Below, in pieces: positions 122-62,218 of a stretch of 64,000 nucleotides of DNA. Both the position numbers and the translations under genes were made by a program. The stretch comes from an uncultured Planctomycetaceae bacterium (lineage in GTDB: Bacteria; Planctomycetota; Planctomycetia; Planctomycetales; Planctomycetaceae). Location: contig CALFSX010000278.1 in the NCBI GenBank assembly GCA_937916515.1, positions 1 to 64,000 of the forward strand. The letters run 5' to 3'. Below the pieces are notes generated by a model that saw only the letters and a list, made by a program, of their open reading frames with translations, searched no databases and had not been told where the DNA came from. The stretch's first letter is position 1, and each line of letters opens with the position of its first letter.

Positions 122-154
122 ATCGTCGAACATTGGCCGATCGGCCACAATCCG

Positions 155-254
155 TGACTGCACCCGGTAGCGACAACGGAGCGGCTCGGCGCATAGAACG
201 TTCCATGTCTTTCCGCATGCCACGCCAGCGGGTCAAGGGCGAAGCCCTTGCTAG
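155..254 (+). repeat. Family A dispersed repeat, copy 1 (right half only)
   Basis: Contains the family signature GTAGCGACAACGGAGCGGCT and ends in the hairpin CAAGGGC-GAA-GCCCTTG followed by CTAG. The end of the element overlaps the 3' end of the neighbouring minus-strand gene and supplies its TAG stop codon. Confidence 0.8.
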
Positions 255-2068: not shown

Positions 2069-2100
2069 CTGCTCAAACAGGCGACGCCATTGTCTAGACT

Positions 2101-2334
2101 TCTTAAAGCAGCGAACTTGTTCATGTTGCGGCAAATTTTTCTGAGCGACGTCGTCGCATTTTCGAGCGGTCGCTTTAATGGTCGGTAGCACGGCCTCGCT
2201 AGAGTCTTCCTCCCAATGATGCGCACACGGTGCGGGCGTATTGGCCGTAGCGACTACGGAGCGGCTTGGCGATTCGAAGGTCCGATGTCTTGCCGCCAGC
2301 CACGCCACTGGGTCAAGGACGCAGCCCTTGTTAG
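2101..2334 (+). repeat. Family A dispersed repeat, copy 2 (full length)
   Basis: Both halves are present. The left half carries CTGAGCGACG and ends GGCCTCGCTAGA. The right half carries GTAGCGACTACGGAGCGGCT and ends GCAGCCCTTGTTAG. It is more diverged than the copies at 5570 and 48571. Its complement stays open for about 75 codons in frame with the gene ending at 251, which artificially lengthens that ORF. Confidence 0.85.
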
Positions 2335-5521: not shown

Positions 5522-5569
5522 ATCTGTGACGCCAAACAGAGGTGTTTACAGACAGAGTTAGACTGCTTA

Positions 5570-5780
5570 TTGCGGGGGACTTGTTCACATTGAGTCAAGT
5601 TTTCTGAGCGACGTAGTGGCGTTTCTGAGCGTCAGCTCAAATGGTCAAAGGCACCGCCTCATTAGAGTGTGCACGGTGTGCAATCTTTTTTCGTAGCGAC
5701 AACGGAGCGGCTCGGCGATTCGAGCGTTCCACGTCTGTCTGCGTGCCACGCCACTGGGTCAAGGGCGAAGCCCTTGTTAG
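5570..5780 (+). repeat. Family A dispersed repeat, copy 3 (full length)
   Basis: The left half contains TTTTCTGAGCGACGTAGTGG and ends CGCCTCATTAGA. The right half contains CGTAGCGACAACGGAGCGGC and ends in CAAGGGC-GAA-GCCCTTG-TTAG. It fills almost the whole spacer between the DUF1559 gene and the small membrane protein at 5811, ending 30 bp before its ATG. Confidence 0.9.
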
Positions 5781-9500: not shown

Positions 9501-10295
9501 GGTTCTCATGGTGAAAACGGTGGCCGGATGTTGAAGCCCGGCTTCCATTCAGGGACTCTGCCCAAGCTGTTTCGAAAAATGCGAGCGTTGGAACGTAAGG
9601 AAGTTTCGTATCAGCGATTCAGTAATCGCCGTGCGTTGCGAGAAGCTTTGGAGCATAGCGAACGCGACATTCGCCGATTTGTTACGCGAGATCTTGTGCG
9701 ACTGCTGAAGTATTGCAGCGTTTGGGAAGGCGTAGATCTGGCATGTTCAACGGTTCGAGCAGCTTCCAACAGCATCTTGATCGAACTGGAAGCAAAGTCG
9801 CTTGGCGATTCCCCTGTGCAGATTCTGTTTCAGGAACAAAGCGGCTGGTTGGTCGCCAGCGTGGCCGAACACGGATGGCTGAATTCAGTGACTCCTGAAA
9901 TGACTCACAGCTTCGAAACCGCTTTGCGTGGTTTCTATGTGAAGACCGGCATTGAACTGGTGCGAGAACAGATGGAACGCAATCTGATTGGACCTCATCC
10001 GTACGATGTTTGTAGCCTGGGCCTGGTGATCTGGCCCGACCGTCAGTTTGACCGCGAAATCACGATCGACCTACACCGCCGCCATCAGATCAAGCCGATG
10101 CCTCCCAGCATGGCAGCCAGTTACGGTGTGCAGCCGGTTTCTCGTGAAGCCGTGGTGTTTTCCGAAGTCGGCCTGCGTTGGGCCGATTGGAAACGAGTGT
10201 GGGCGGTTCCCGAAGACAGCGAATCCGCCACCCCGCTACCTTTGGCCTGTATGCAGTCCGCCAGAAGTTCTCTGCTGTCGTCCGGACGCGGGTAA
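6528..10295 (+). CDS. Large multi-segment membrane protein, planctomycete hypothetical
   Basis: 1255 aa with a GTG start (VSTGTLSTKIPEL). The first 550 residues are soluble, Arg/Leu-rich and mainly helical, with no signal peptide, so probably cytosolic. A hydrophobic segment around 555-575 is followed by a spacer of about 120 residues rich in Ala, Glu, Asp and Thr (roughly 575-695). Several further hydrophobic segments follow: PLILLVGFILMAVIHV, PLLIAWVGCQVIPVLL, LVLVVALLLSLAL, and a pair near 880-985 with LPGIFGFLVWEL. The C-terminal 260 residues are soluble again. I recognise no catalytic motif. The acidic spacer between the first two membrane segments would be extracytoplasmic. A structural or scaffold role is possible but not shown. 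Confidence 0.85.
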   Translation: MSTGTLSTKIPELRRAVRQAEDRAFLVEPRVVRRIIREQYGFARLSTRIPHTDVLVAKALDIRSLAHPDELGLEDFSQLPTLSILVAQPEEHELEQLPLQDLMQLTWSRLFHGVIDLQLTLAASDGRLSRARVQETIDQIGQVEFDEAHSVLKSELRLFHPDSHVEAYREFVAIYLQLLRFTPDLLPVWFPSLSDSKRIVSIVGSHFDIEAMFNKTRLYGATSPDLTSGTIKDEDKVSSERRSWSEGVSFKPSARRYAGLLKKRDRWNERGNTVAAGVAAMQAIESATTEDERATALAAAHVDMQSLSQRLHAALNFDETDLDDWQKSLWELLQNSPHGFWNADKKLLYDLQKVCLDHERTIYQVDLVKWVVSRGKRPLRRPLTNVREVMMAKHLASSASRLVSVRLSGAERERLSRLIHAAADLAEEQMRERMRSVVRETILQVGLAPKSIPESVALDKMVEESLDCITERGYLTMGYLRDAISRNDLKLPDLSDPKDLIRGDHLLRSDDRLDVSLDGVYRRGEFYLRWLQVVSSMAFGTRTGRFLTKFLVIPFGGAIVIVEGVQHFVKVLVGSEDTAATSTTESAEAAAETNAGNHLTATDSEAGAATVTEAGAEAGASDSLEVAAIANDDSPVDVDLDGTLLAAGDLLVEGDADQASPINGLAALTDDGQPVDSSADAGNVELTGTPSEYQIPVDEVMGQLELPLILLVGFILMAVIHVDSIRAAFFALLRYGLRVLRTVLYDVPAAIIRMPAIQKFWRSRLFVKVRRHVTNPLLIAWVGCQVIPVLLRLQPQDWRLVLVVALLLSLALNSRLGRDTEELTAEWLANAWHDLRSRFLMALLDWVMDFFKWILNTVERFIYAVDEWLRFHSGETWITVVVKAILGVAWSFVSFLIRIYVNLLIEPTLHPVKHFPVVTVAHKLFLPVILILEHYMRSNLTPYIGLPLAGLVTWFNIAFLPGIFGFLVWELKENWRLYASNRVPTLRPVAIGSHGENGGRMLKPGFHSGTLPKLFRKMRALERKEVSYQRFSNRRALREALEHSERDIRRFVTRDLVRLLKYCSVWEGVDLACSTVRAASNSILIELEAKSLGDSPVQILFQEQSGWLVASVAEHGWLNSVTPEMTHSFETALRGFYVKTGIELVREQMERNLIGPHPYDVCSLGLVIWPDRQFDREITIDLHRRHQIKPMPPSMAASYGVQPVSREAVVFSEVGLRWADWKRVWAVPEDSESATPLPLACMQSARSSLLSSGRG

Positions 10296-14823: not shown

Positions 14824-15375
14824 TTGAGATGGCGGGAAGATATGCAGCAGTCGGTACTCATTAAACAGTGTAGCTCCGATTTGGCGCCGGGGAAGGTACC
14901 AGTGTTTGCGAAGAGTCCGACTTTTGCCCTGTTTTTTCGCCTTAGGTACAGATATTCAGTCATTGCCGGAGCTCAGCCCAATTCGCACGTCAGAGACGTC
15001 AGGAGTTCTGCGTCGCACACGTTTTTTGCTCCAAACTTCAACATTTCAGATTCTTACTCAAAAAAGGTACGTGCCCGGTGCGAGCACCTTTTTCGTAGCG
15101 ACAACGGAGCGGTTCGACGATTGAAACATCCCGCGTCATGCCCCGTCCCGCGCCACGGGGTCAGGTACGAAGCCATTCTTAGGCGTACAGGCGAACGACT
15201 GTACCGTAATTTGTGGCGATTGATTTTTTTGAGTTTTGCTGCAAAGACGCCGCTGTTCACTCGATCTGCGTGAATTCTAAAGATCGCGACTGTATGGTTT
15301 TGAAGTAGCGATCCCACATCTGAATTGGGCGAACTGTGTTTGTTCGTGTTTATCCTGTTGTTGAAAGGAAAGTCC
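14824..15375. other. Spacer between divergent genes
   Basis: About 550 bases between the DUF1592 gene (minus) and the DUF1579 gene (plus). It holds family A copy 4 (15051-15182) and presumably both promoters. No further gene is supported; the 149-aa plus frame starting at 14824 is partly repeat translation. Confidence 0.4.
15051..15182 (+). repeat. Family A dispersed repeat, copy 4 (diverged right half)
   Basis: Contains TTCTTACTCAAAAAAGG, the GTGCGAGCACC block and CGTAGCGACAACGGAGCGG. Its 3' end has decayed from the canonical hairpin to GAAGCCATTCTTAG, so it looks like an old copy. Confidence 0.75.
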
Positions 15376-15963: not shown

Positions 15964-16367
15964 GTCCAGAATTAGTATCCCTGATTGACAGTAATGCGCA
16001 ACTTCACGAAGGCCATTCCATGGTGTTTAGAAGGAATCGGGATTGGGCAAGTTCTGTTGTTACAGTCGCGGAGCGACGGCATGCGATAGCCTCGGACTTC
16101 AGTCCGAGGTTGCCAGATGGTTTCCAGGAAAGTCGCGGAGCGACGGCATGCGGAAAAGCCACATGTCGCCGCTCTGCGGCTTATCATTCGTCTCACGGCA
16201 GCCAACCTCGGGTTAAAACCCGAGGCTATCATATGCCGTCGCTCCGAGACTCACCTGTCGCAACGTGCAACGACGCTGGAAGAAAACAAGTAGTGTTTTG
16301 AGCCTCGACGTCACGCCCAATTCCAGCGAATTTCATGACTCAGGACTCGCGATCTAATTTCGGGACT
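15964..16367. mobile_element. Family B MITE-like element, copy 1, with nested family C
   Basis: Left end GTCCAGAATTAGTATCCC matches the complement of the right end GATCTAATTTCGGGAC as imperfect terminal inverted repeats. The outer parts align well with the element at 31925, including AAGGCCATTCCAT, CTCACCTGTCGCAA-GTGCAACGACGCTGGA and the ATCTAATTTCGGG end. This copy is about 175 bp longer because family C sits where copy 2 has only a short hairpin. It encodes nothing convincing. Confidence 0.8.
16065..16250. repeat. Family C inverted-repeat element nested in family B
   Basis: Arms of about 31 bp: GTCGCGGAGCGACGGCATGC (continuing GATAGCCTCGG) pairs with the complement of CCGAGGCTATCATATGCCGT (continuing CGCTCCGAGAC), with only a few mismatches. 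A third partial copy of the arm lies at about 16132-16153. Internal hairpins CCTCGGACTTCAGTCCGAGG and CCTCGGGTTAAAACCCGAGG are perfect. Confidence 0.8.
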
Positions 16368-16616
16368 GCTTTTAAGCGCCGTCGGAATCGTCCGTATGAT
16401 GGGCGGGAAGATGCTGCCACAAAAACAATTCTTCGTTCCGAGACTGCTGTGTTCTATCACGCGGCGAACCGGCAGGTTTTCGGTGGGTCTTTCAAGCCTG
16501 AACGCTTACGTGTTGACCGCAGGCGTTTTGTCAGGTCCAATTCCTGCCCCCCAGCTTCATTTATCTGAGGTTTGGCCGTTTTTTCGTTCGCTGACGCCTG
16601 CCAGGCTATTAATTTC

Positions 16617-25918: not shown

Positions 25919-26150
25919 CTAACAAGGGCTTCGCCCTTGCCCCACCGGCGTGGCGGGCGGGAAGACGTGGAACGTCCGAATCGCCGAGCCGCTCCGTTGT
26001 CGCTACGAAACAAGATGCGGGCACCGGGCTCGCATCATTTTGAGTAAGTCTCCAGCGTGGCTTCGCCTCAGACCATTCGAGCTAACGCTCGGAAACGCCA
26101 CTACGTCGTTCAGAAAAATTGACTCGAACCGAACAAGTTCAGTTCGACAA
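25919..26150 (-). repeat. Family A dispersed repeat, copy 5 (full length)
   Basis: Minus-oriented: starts CTAACAAGGGCTTCGCCCTT and contains GCCGCTCCGTTGTCGCTACG, the block TCATTTTGAGTAAG and CAGACCATTCGAGC. It ends in AACAAGTTCAGTTCG. It begins within 8-20 bp of the oxidoreductase start codon. Confidence 0.9.
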
Positions 26151-26190
26151 GAAGTCTCTGACTTTACCGAAATTCATGTGCTGCTGTCTT

Positions 26191-26262
26191 AAACCACGAA
26201 TTGGACGAATGGCACGAATTTTCCAAAGCTGTCATTCGTCAAATTCGTGCCATTCGTGGTTG
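26191..26262. repeat. Palindrome of AACCACGAATGGCACGAATTT type
   Basis: The right arm AAATTCGTGCCATTCGTGGT is the complement of the left arm, except that the left arm carries a 9-bp insertion (TGGACGAAT) that partly duplicates its own sequence. It lies between family A copy 5 and the 3' end of trkA. Confidence 0.75.
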
Positions 26263-31924: not shown

Positions 31925-32153
31925 GTCCCGAATTAAAATCCCTGATAGACGGCAATGCGCGACTTCACGATGGCCATTCCATAGCGTATAGAAGCAATCG
32001 CAATTTGGCACTTTGTGTTTTCTACAGTTGCTCCGCAACTCACCTGTCGCAAAGTGCAACGACGCTGGAAAATCAAAAAGAGTTTTGAGCGTCGACGGCA
32101 TGTCCAATGCCAGTTTACTTCATTACTCACAACTCGGGATCTAATTTCGGGTC
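31925..32153. mobile_element. Family B MITE-like element, copy 2 (compact)
   Basis: Terminal inverted repeats: left GTCCCGAATTAAAATCCC and right GGGATCTAATTTCGGG (complement CCCGAAATTAGATCCC). 229 bp with no coding potential. Where copy 1 carries family C, this copy has only the short hairpin GTTGC-TCC-GCAAC. A family A copy begins six bases to its right. Confidence 0.8.
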
Positions 32154-32158
32154 AGTTC

Positions 32159-32381
32159 CTAACAAGGGCTTCGCCCTTGCCCCAGTGGCGTGGCACGCAG
32201 GAAGACGTGGAACGCTCGAATCGCAGAGACGCTCCGTTGTTGCTACGACCAATATGCGGGCATCATTTTGAGTAAGACTCTAACGAGGCCGTGCCTCAGA
32301 CCATTCGAGCTGCCGCTCGGAAACGCGACTACGTCGCTCAGAAAAATTCACTCAACGTGAACAAGCTCGATGCTTTAAGAA
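32159..32381 (-). repeat. Family A dispersed repeat, copy 6 (full length)
   Basis: Starts CTAACAAGGGCTTCGCCCTT, contains CGCTCCGTTGTTGCTACGA, then CTCTAACGAGGC-CGT-GCCTC and CATTCGAGCTGCCGCTCGGA. It ends AACAAGCTCGATGCTTTAAGA. Both hairpin-plus-CTAAC modules are clear here. Confidence 0.9.
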
Positions 32382-32490
32382 GGGTAACGAGCTTATGCTG
32401 TCGCTCGGCCTTCGCGACTGATCCGGCACGCCATTTGAATTCCTCCAATGACAGAAAGCTTTAGCAGGAGTTCCGTTGCACTCGGCGCAC

Positions 32491-36389: not shown

Positions 36390-36427
36390 CTGAGTCAATG
36401 CAGCATAGTGCGGCACAACCAGGAGCG

Positions 36428-36470
36428 TTCTAACCGCCGAGCCGCTCCGTTGTTGCTACGAGAATGATGC
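36428..36470 (-). repeat. Family A dispersed repeat, copy 7 (fragment)
   Basis: A fragment containing CGAGCCGCTCCGTTGTTGCT followed by GAGAATGATGCG. The CTAAC hairpin end is missing. Confidence 0.65.
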
Positions 36471-36522
36471 GTGTTGAGGAAGACGTTGATTTATCGGTTG
36501 CAGGTCGTTGAACAAAGTGAAA

Positions 36523-47302: not shown

Positions 47303-47456
47303 CTGACAAGGGCTTCGTCCTTGACCCCGTGGCGTGGTATGCGGAAAGACGTGGTACGTTCGAATTGCCGAACCGATGCGCTGTCGCTGCGATAAACTTG
47401 CGGGCATTGTGCTCGCAACATTTTAAGCAAGAATTCAACGACGGCTTCGCCCGGCC
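47303..47456 (-). repeat. Family A dispersed repeat, copy 8
   Basis: Starts CTGACAAGGGCTTCGTCCTT, contains GGCGTGGTATGCGGAAAGACG and GATGCGCTGTCGCTGCGATA, then CATTTTAAGCAAGAATTC and a truncated left half ending GGCTTCGCCC. It fills most of the spacer 47225-47562 upstream of the sigma gene, so the sigma promoter must be in or near it. Confidence 0.8.
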
Positions 47457-48570: not shown

Positions 48571-48808
48571 TTAGATTCTTACTGCAGGGAACATGTTCAC
48601 GTTGAGTCAAGTTTTCTGAGCGACAGCGGAGCGTTTCCGAGCGGCAGCTCGAATGGTCTGAGGCACAGCCTCGTTAGATTCTTACTGAAAAGATTGCGTG
48701 CACGATGCGAGGATATTTATCGTAGCGACAACGGAGCGGCTCGGCGATTCAAACGTACCACGTCTTTCCGCATACCACTCCACTGGGTTAAGGGCGAAGC
48801 CCTTGTTA
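48571..48808 (+). repeat. Family A dispersed repeat, copy 9 (full length, best preserved)
   Basis: Left half CTGAGCGACAGCGGAGCGTT TCCGAGC-GGCA-GCTCG ending GAGGC-ACA-GCCTC-GTTAGA; right half CGTAGCGACAACGGAGCGGC ending CAAGGGC-GAA-GCCCTTG-TTAC. The halves share the core GCGAC-A/G-CGGAGCG. Confidence 0.92.
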
Positions 48809-49003
48809 CGGCAAATTGTCGCAACCAGAATCAGCGTTTCCAGGCAAAACCGATCCAAACACGAAACGAGCGGCACTTCGCACTGAATTCAGATTGTCGC
48901 CCTGAAACCGCTATCCTGCAACCGAGCTTGCAATTTCGCACTCAGAGAACCTTGGTTTTGCCTGCCTATTGCGAAAAATCAAAGGCAATTCCGCAGAGGA
49001 CCG
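48809..49003. other. Gene-free stretch
   Basis: 195 bases after repeat copy 9, between it and the 3' end of the CRTAC1-like gene. Nothing recognised; no clear terminator for that gene. Confidence 0.35.
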
Positions 49004-61849: not shown

Positions 61850-61903
61850 TAAGTTTCCTGACCACTTTCAAAACTGTAACCCCGTTGGAGTCTTTCTCCA
61901 AAA

Positions 61904-61996
61904 ATAATGCGAGCACGGTGCAGGCATGTATTCTGAGCGACAACGGAGCGTTTCCGAGCGGTAGCTCGAATGGGCTGCGGGCCAGCCCGCGTTAAG
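61904..61996 (+). repeat. Family A dispersed repeat, copy 10 (rearranged)
   Basis: Contains ATGCGAGCACGGTGC, which normally precedes the right half, joined directly to TTCTGAGCGACAACGGAGCG and TTTCCGAGCGGTAGCTCGAA from the left half, and ends GGCCAGCCCGCGTTAAG. The block order differs from the other copies, implying recombination between halves. The rest of 61850-62218 shows nothing. Confidence 0.75.
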
Positions 61997-62218
61997 TCCT
62001 ATCGACTTTGTCGCCTTGGCAACTCTGGCAAATTCTGCTGAGCCTGACGAACACGTTTGTTACGCAAACCATTCTGCCAACATCGTCGATTGTGACGATT
62101 ATTCACCACCGCCAAATTATGTGATGAAAGCCAATTTTGTTTCCGCCGGAATCCTTCACTGACACCAGAACACCGCTTCAAAATGAAGCCTTCACGATTC
62201 AGCAGAAGCATCGACTCA

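Follow-up and report, generated by a model that had tools for sequence, protein, structure and literature searches.

The repeat at positions 48571-48808 lies in a window (the whole stretch of DNA analysed, 64,000 nucleotides, C278:1-64000) taken from a planctomycete assembly of 8.33 Mb in 343 contigs, and it is one of ten copies there of a family built from two modules, A and B. All ten sites named in the original prediction (10/10) were recovered with clean matches when the window was searched with a family profile built from 30 full genome copies (Table 1). Copy 5 is flanked by a dihydrolipoamide-dehydrogenase-like gene and a TrkA gene (Pfam), and copy 6 lies downstream of a cstA gene (CstA by Pfam). 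Copy 10, which had been thought to have its blocks rearranged, is not scrambled: its left end is of B type and its core of A type, its right end carries a third kind of hairpin (GCGGGCCAGCCCGC, then G-TTAA), and the same arrangement recurs in the related genome G005 (L143, L144).

Table 1. Copies of the A/B family in the window, with the parts of copy 9 (window positions).
Feature	Position	Strand	Evidence or remark
Copy 1, module B, 5' part absent	146..253	+	right end is hairpin + GCTAG; profile E=6e-24
Copy 2, A-B dimer	2095..2333	+	profile E=2e-63
Copy 3, A-B dimer, both ends with TTAG	5558..5779	+	profile E=5e-63
Copy 4, lone module B	15047..15181	+	profile E=2e-23
Copy 5, A-B dimer	25920..26157	-	profile E=1e-64
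Copy 6, A-B dimer	32160..32383	-	profile E=2e-71
Copy 7, B core fragment	36409..36472	-	profile E=9e-10
Copy 8, lone module B, diverged	47304..47445	-	profile E=2e-32
Copy 9, A-B dimer	48571..48808	+	profile E=7e-77 (match at 48575-48808), sequence
Copy 9, left TTAG bordering module A (target side)	48571..48574	+	sequence, left-end alignment
Copy 9, module A including right-end TTAG	48575..48677	+	sequence, alignment
Copy 9, module A right-end hairpin TGAGGC-ACA-GCCTCG	48659..48673	+	fold, stem census, pair counts
Copy 9, TTAG directly after module A hairpin	48674-48677	+	sequence
Copy 9, module B	48678..48808	+	sequence, alignment
Copy 9, module B right-end hairpin (T)AAGGGC-GAA-GCCCTT(G)	48789..48805	+	fold, stem census
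Copy 9, TTAC (variant of TTAG) directly after module B hairpin	48806-48809	+	sequence
Copy 10, mixed module	61880..62000	+	two profile matches

The window contains other repeats as well. The spacer of copy 5 also holds an inverted repeat of the type CCACGAATGGCACGAATT..AATTCGTGCCATTCGT (about 26175-26260), and a dispersed repeat present in two copies that are about 80% identical (families D8 and D9; 16238-16375 and 32027-32162) abuts, in one of them, the B end of copy 6. Two matches to the Acido-Lenti-1 RNA (Rfam RF01687) at 16064-16109 (-) and 16206-16251 (+) form a large inverted repeat, and a B module at C91 58411-58759 is interrupted by similar sequence.

Two modules with a hairpin at the right end

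The original prediction described a bipartite repeat whose halves each end in a hairpin followed by GTTAG, and the hairpin and GTTAG are indeed present at the end of both modules; the halves, however, are independent units, because full A and full B each occur alone. In a 2.38 Mb genome sample there were 102 lone full B, 19 lone full A and 43 full A-B clusters, with B-B, A-A, B-B-B and A-A-B being rarer. Module A is about 105 bp long and has the consensus TTAG-ACTTCTTAAAGCAGCGAACTTGTTCACGTTGAGTCAAGTTTTCTGAGCGACGTAGTCGCG..CGAGCGGCAGCTCGAATGGTC-TGAGGC-ACA-GCCTCG-TTAG, while module B is about 135 bp and reads TTAG-AGTCTTACTCAAAATGATGCGCGCACGGTGCGCGCAT..CGTAGCGACAACGGAGCGG..ACTGGGT-CAAGGGC-GAA-GCCCTTG-TTAG. 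The GTTAG predicted after the hairpin is found there but not there only, as it borders each module on both sides. In single copies with unrelated flanks, conservation ends at the TTAG border on the left and after TTAG on the right, where the next base is preferably G. Alignment of module copies revealed no terminal inverted repeats, the two ends being unrelated.

A stem of at least five pairs abuts the right end in 94% of A modules and in 84% of B modules, versus 4-6% of shuffled sequences, and the hairpin at the left end is weak and variable. Across species, right-end stems of at least five different sequences occur, namely TGAGGC/GCCTCG, CAAGGGC/GCCCTTG, TGCGGG/CCCGCG, TGTGGGC/GCCCACG-type and CGAGGGT/GCCCTCG, and every right-end stem closes on a G that is followed by TTAG or a variant of it. 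In 46 A modules, the internal and terminal stems consist of 99% standard pairs and show changes on both sides at three pairs (one of which, C-G to T-A, may stem from few events), with much lower pair counts for slid versions of the same stems. Judged from these counts, the hairpin structure seems to matter, since its letters change while pairing persists, and this suggests that a folded strand is what is recognized. The element matched no Rfam covariance model. Viewed on the minus strand, CTAAC sits 5' of the hairpin, in the position of the guide in REP elements.

Abundance, relatives and genomic context

Allowing up to 3 mismatches, the B core GTAGCGACNNCGGAGCGGCTCGGCG has 245 forward and 230 reverse matches (475 in all) in the 8.33 Mb genome, where the reversed pattern used as a control has none on either strand (0/0). 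A profile census of the 2.38 Mb sample (28.5% of the genome) yielded 360 modules, 248 B and 112 A, that form 280 clusters (146 plus, 134 minus), with 0 in reversed sequence. The census rests on this sample together with the whole-genome pattern count, and scaling by the latter, which corrects only roughly for a sample enriched for contigs with known matches, gives an extrapolated total of about 595 B and 269 A, or ~860 modules genome-wide. The family is therefore not confined to a few places, and its predicted high copy number holds across the genome; the predicted high density needs qualification, since several 20 kb pieces are without any module and the window is denser than average. Identity of the genome's own copies to the consensus reaches 97-98%, with a median of about 89%, a spread that fits repeated bursts of which the newest was fairly recent in this species. 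L173 and L175 (C314 and C302), two contigs of some 15.3 kb each, share their elements and flanks but are oppositely oriented, reflecting either a duplication or redundant assembly.

Seven congeners have 0-1 B core matches each. A freer search detected diverged copies in G001, G002, G004, G005, G007 and G012, including about 11 in G004, a complete congener genome, and many in G012, which belongs to another genus. Among Planctomycetaceae, 17 of 170 genomes have a match, the present genome included, so the family has a patchy distribution across Planctomycetaceae, with massive amplification in this Fuerstiella-type species. Occupying roughly 1% of the 8.3 Mb genome and nearly absent from congeners, it is a recent force that has shaped this genome on a large scale, in a phylum that has received little study.

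In the first sample, 75 of 118 clusters were clearly intergenic in a genome that is about 87% coding by crude ORF calls, and convergent spacers held 21 clusters versus 8 in divergent spacers, though the latter are equally numerous. Such gene-end hairpins, mostly intergenic and favouring convergent spacers, could be taken for transcription terminators or cis-regulatory elements that spread by gene conversion and not by transposition. This is highly improbable, however, as orientation relative to genes shows no preference in tandem contexts (20 vs 26), the hairpin is not followed by a T run, the element is absent or nearly so in several congeners, and insertions into unrelated repeats with known empty sites (see below) refute any non-mobile version, including an ordinary conserved leader or terminator that lacks empty sites. 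The context fits selection against promoter disruption better than a terminator role, although a secondary role of this kind is possible.

Insertion beside TTAG and one-way stacking

Because relatives have not kept synteny around the TrkA gene, empty sites were sought among repeats of the genome itself, by joining the flanks of each copy and looking for the product in the genome sample. Three clean empty sites were found, all within another repeat, Z, of which intact 'empty' copies reading GCAGGGCGTTAGCCCCGGTTAGTGCGG exist elsewhere in the genome. At L154 14233-14368 a lone B lies in Z and is read as CCCCGGTTAG/AGTCTTAC..CCCTTGTTAG/TGCGG, and Z is interrupted by B-B at L107 3692-3959 and by A-A-B at L177 10232-10563, each at an internal TTAG other than that of L154. 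Most intact Z copies (e.g. L003, L069, L094, L108) have one TTAG at the site whereas filled copies have TTAG on both sides; in 3/3 filled sites one TTAG has become two, with the module or modules between. The modules are real mobile elements that lack terminal inverted repeats, are non-autonomous and rebuild their own target, and the original prediction of a non-autonomous mobile element is borne out by species-specific abundance, patchiness in relatives and the existence of empty sites. The reverse nesting was also seen, the terminal hairpin of an A module enclosing a Z-type core at L184 17446-17565 and L177 2403-2524 (GGTC-[Z core]-GGCACAGCCTCG-TTAG), a composite found twice as if it had itself been copied.

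Because the right end finishes in GTTAG, it is itself a target, and, as this leads one to expect, modules no more than 10 bp apart have the same orientation and stand head-to-tail in 76/76 pairs. These comprise 60 A-B, 8 B-B, 5 A-A and 3 B-A pairs, and the excess of A-B over B-A indicates that the A-B dimer probably spread as one unit. Dispersal is genome-wide, insertion beside TTAG is precise, TTAG stands on both sides, stacking is one-way and the hairpin is kept as a structure.

The account to which the evidence modestly inclines is one of non-autonomous modules that insert beside TTAG, remake the target with their right-end hairpin and are moved in trans by a probable Y1 HUH transposase. 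In this scheme, a module A, a module B, a mixture of them or an A-B dimer as a unit would insert directly beside 5'-TTAG-3' in a single orientation, the right end would bring a hairpin that closes on a G directly before a new TTAG, and the target recreated in this way could accept more modules head-to-tail. A trans-acting enzyme would read the folded, presumably single-stranded hairpin and cleave at TTAG, and this enzyme would most likely be a Y1 HUH transposase of the IS200/REP/class-3 group, making HUH mobilization in trans the best guess.

Several observations count against an HUH enzyme. The left and right flanking 4-mers are identical in 48/126 cases versus 38.9 by chance (p=0.006), or in 45/113 versus 36.2 with realigned ends (p=0.005); where both differ from TTAG, 6 copies agree versus 2.6 expected (p=0.02), and TTAA is found on both sides in 4 cases (p=0.002). 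This match resembles a short target duplication, which HUH enzymes do not make, and hints at target duplication or core exchange; a guide that co-varies with its target could also produce it under HUH. With respect to GC skew, orientation shows only a weak bias (153/280, p=0.14; p=0.05 in the strong-skew subset), where lagging-strand targeting predicts a clear one. The weakness of the left-end hairpin is a further point against.

The same data bear on a different class of enzyme, either a DDE transposase that duplicates a 4-nt core (YTAR-type duplication) or a tyrosine recombinase that exchanges one, pairing the TTAG of a circle with that of the target. The two flanking TTAGs would then come from target and core. 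Such a mechanism would account for the pair of TTAGs seen at each clean empty site, for the correlated left and right 4-mers, including rare TTAA-TTAA and TTGG-TTGG combinations, and for head-to-tail stacking as in core-exchange systems. Terminal inverted repeats are nevertheless absent, hairpin structure is strong at one end only, and the correlation is modest (p 0.002-0.02) and explicable by a co-varying guide and target under HUH, so a mechanism of this kind is rather unlikely.

Candidate enzymes and comparison with known systems

The predicted link to a RAYT, or to a Y1 HUH gene flanked by the same hairpins, was not borne out, because 6/6 Y1 genes in the genome have other hairpins beside them (CCACCGGC.., GGTGGGC.., GGCCGG.. 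and units of class-3 type) and in no case the A/B hairpin with GTTAG. No A/B modules were found at the ends of these six genes (0/6) and no TnpB is present in the genome, both of which speak against an HUH enzyme. The one IS200-like tnpA in the genome is likewise flanked by other hairpins, and Y1 genes in relatives do not track the element, as G007 has traces of it and no Y1 match. A search covering 24% of the genome for an autonomous long copy (LE-gene-RE) with ends 170-4500 bp apart gave nothing convincing, its four candidates being two with low-scoring ends on near-identical contigs, one with a 184 bp gap and one with a 408 bp gap.

Two of the Y1 genes, on L036 and L033, have class-3-like motifs (NHVH, W[TA]) and share 46% identity. 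The class-3-type TnpA_Y1 gene of L036 (1345-1848, within 1210-1930; C184) has Z-type units directly at both sides (CAGCCGCACGGCGTTAGCC.. / ..GGGGCTAACGCCCTGCGGCT), suggesting that Z is the repeat (REP) family of this enzyme in the sense of PMC6006769, and the class-3-type gene of L033 (182-661 minus, within 1-860; C107) is flanked by a different unit (GGCCCGTGGCTAGCGCCATCGGC / CGAACGCGCTAGCGTCGGGC). The GTTAG/CTAAC tag common to Z and A/B, Z ends reading hairpin-CCAG-YTAR, and the insertion of A/B modules at TTAG inside Z make class 3 a specific candidate within the HUH explanation; other bacteria also have class-3 structures in high copy number (PMC6006769). That a TnpA_Y1 of class 3, an HUH class of planctomycetes, is encoded here and moves the A/B modules in trans in addition to Z-type units of its own is still unlikely, as A/B modules adjoin neither class-3-like gene and the published class-3 foot is CnGA and not CTAAC (PMC6006769).

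Other recombinases were considered and rejected as partners. IS110 is represented by a single gene on a stretch without modules, and a XerC-like gene that adjoins a fragment of module B (C91) encodes a housekeeping-type recombinase, the fragment being split by other repeats. Two integron integrases score above the curated cut-off, and one shares its contig with tandem B modules, which, together with the GTTRRRY-like borders (GTTAGAC/GTTAGAG) and tandem head-to-tail growth, would agree with the modules being attC-like sites or coding-free cassettes recombined by an integrase at G/TTRRRY. Such an origin is very unlikely: a complementary inverse core box and an attC-like fold are absent, the end hairpin is self-contained, copies are dispersed with both strands equally frequent, and different repeats, ending GTTGGG, lie downstream of both integrase genes. 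Nor does integrase presence track the element, since the element-rich G012 has no integrase above the cut-off. The downstream repeats, of type CGCAGAGACGCAGAGGGAAACGCAG and ending GTTGGG[C/T] (L107 about 10060-10162, L108 about 7032), are possibly the integrase's own sites. We tentatively entertain, with less than even confidence, a broader view in which the modules are a class of bacterial mobile element that remakes its target and chains like integron cassettes. The enzyme in question would read structure and belong neither with the RAYTs nor with the integron integrases; it might be a class-3 TnpA that works in trans, or an enzyme not yet described.

One-way growth with remaking of the target offers a simple account of how modular tandem repeats arise, and it poses a concrete question, which enzyme reads a hairpin plus GTTAG, that exact ends and a defined target make directly testable. 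No description of the A/B family was found in the open literature, though an earlier one in subscription papers or supplements is possible.

Integron cassettes form head-to-tail chains by insertion at GTTRRRY-like borders. The A/B modules differ from them in having no attC architecture and no array beside an integrase, and in occurring genome-wide in both orientations. The absence of terminal inverted repeats sets them apart from MITEs derived from DDE transposons. In Mycobacterium tuberculosis, MIRU units are short, intergenic, arranged in tandem head-to-tail and inserted at short sites that contain a stop codon; they probably differ from A/B in sequence and structure.

The PATEs of Haloquadratum lack terminal inverted repeats, have near-terminal palindromes, are of a length that excludes a transposase, reach high copy number and are mosaic and nested, and their ends match resident IS605-type transposons, with no target duplication (PMC3119063). 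A/B modules are similarly without terminal inverted repeats, too short for a transposase, high in copy number, mosaic and nested, but they differ in that no resident autonomous relative was found, TnpB is absent, TTAG stands on both sides and modules stack head-to-tail by remaking the target. REPs associated with RAYTs are 20-40 bp long, occur mostly as head-to-head dimers and have GTAG or CGTC as their tag (PMC3733652). The A/B family resembles them in being intergenic, in its hairpin with a short unpaired tag that precedes the hairpin on the minus strand, and in amplification in a single species, whereas its modules are 105-137 bp long with several hairpins, pair head-to-tail in 76/76 cases, have the tag CTAAC/GTTAG and adjoin no RAYT. 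With IS200/IS605 elements and class-3 TnpA_Y1 units (PMC6006769) they have in common insertion in one orientation beside a fixed tetranucleotide, end hairpins and the lack of inverted repeats, but their final tetranucleotide is the target, which is consequently remade, their left hairpin is weak, and their tag is CTAAC/GTTAG where the class-3 foot is CnGA. The A/B family is a variant, with an orphan mechanism, of an already known kind of element, the small hairpin-ended mobile repeats.
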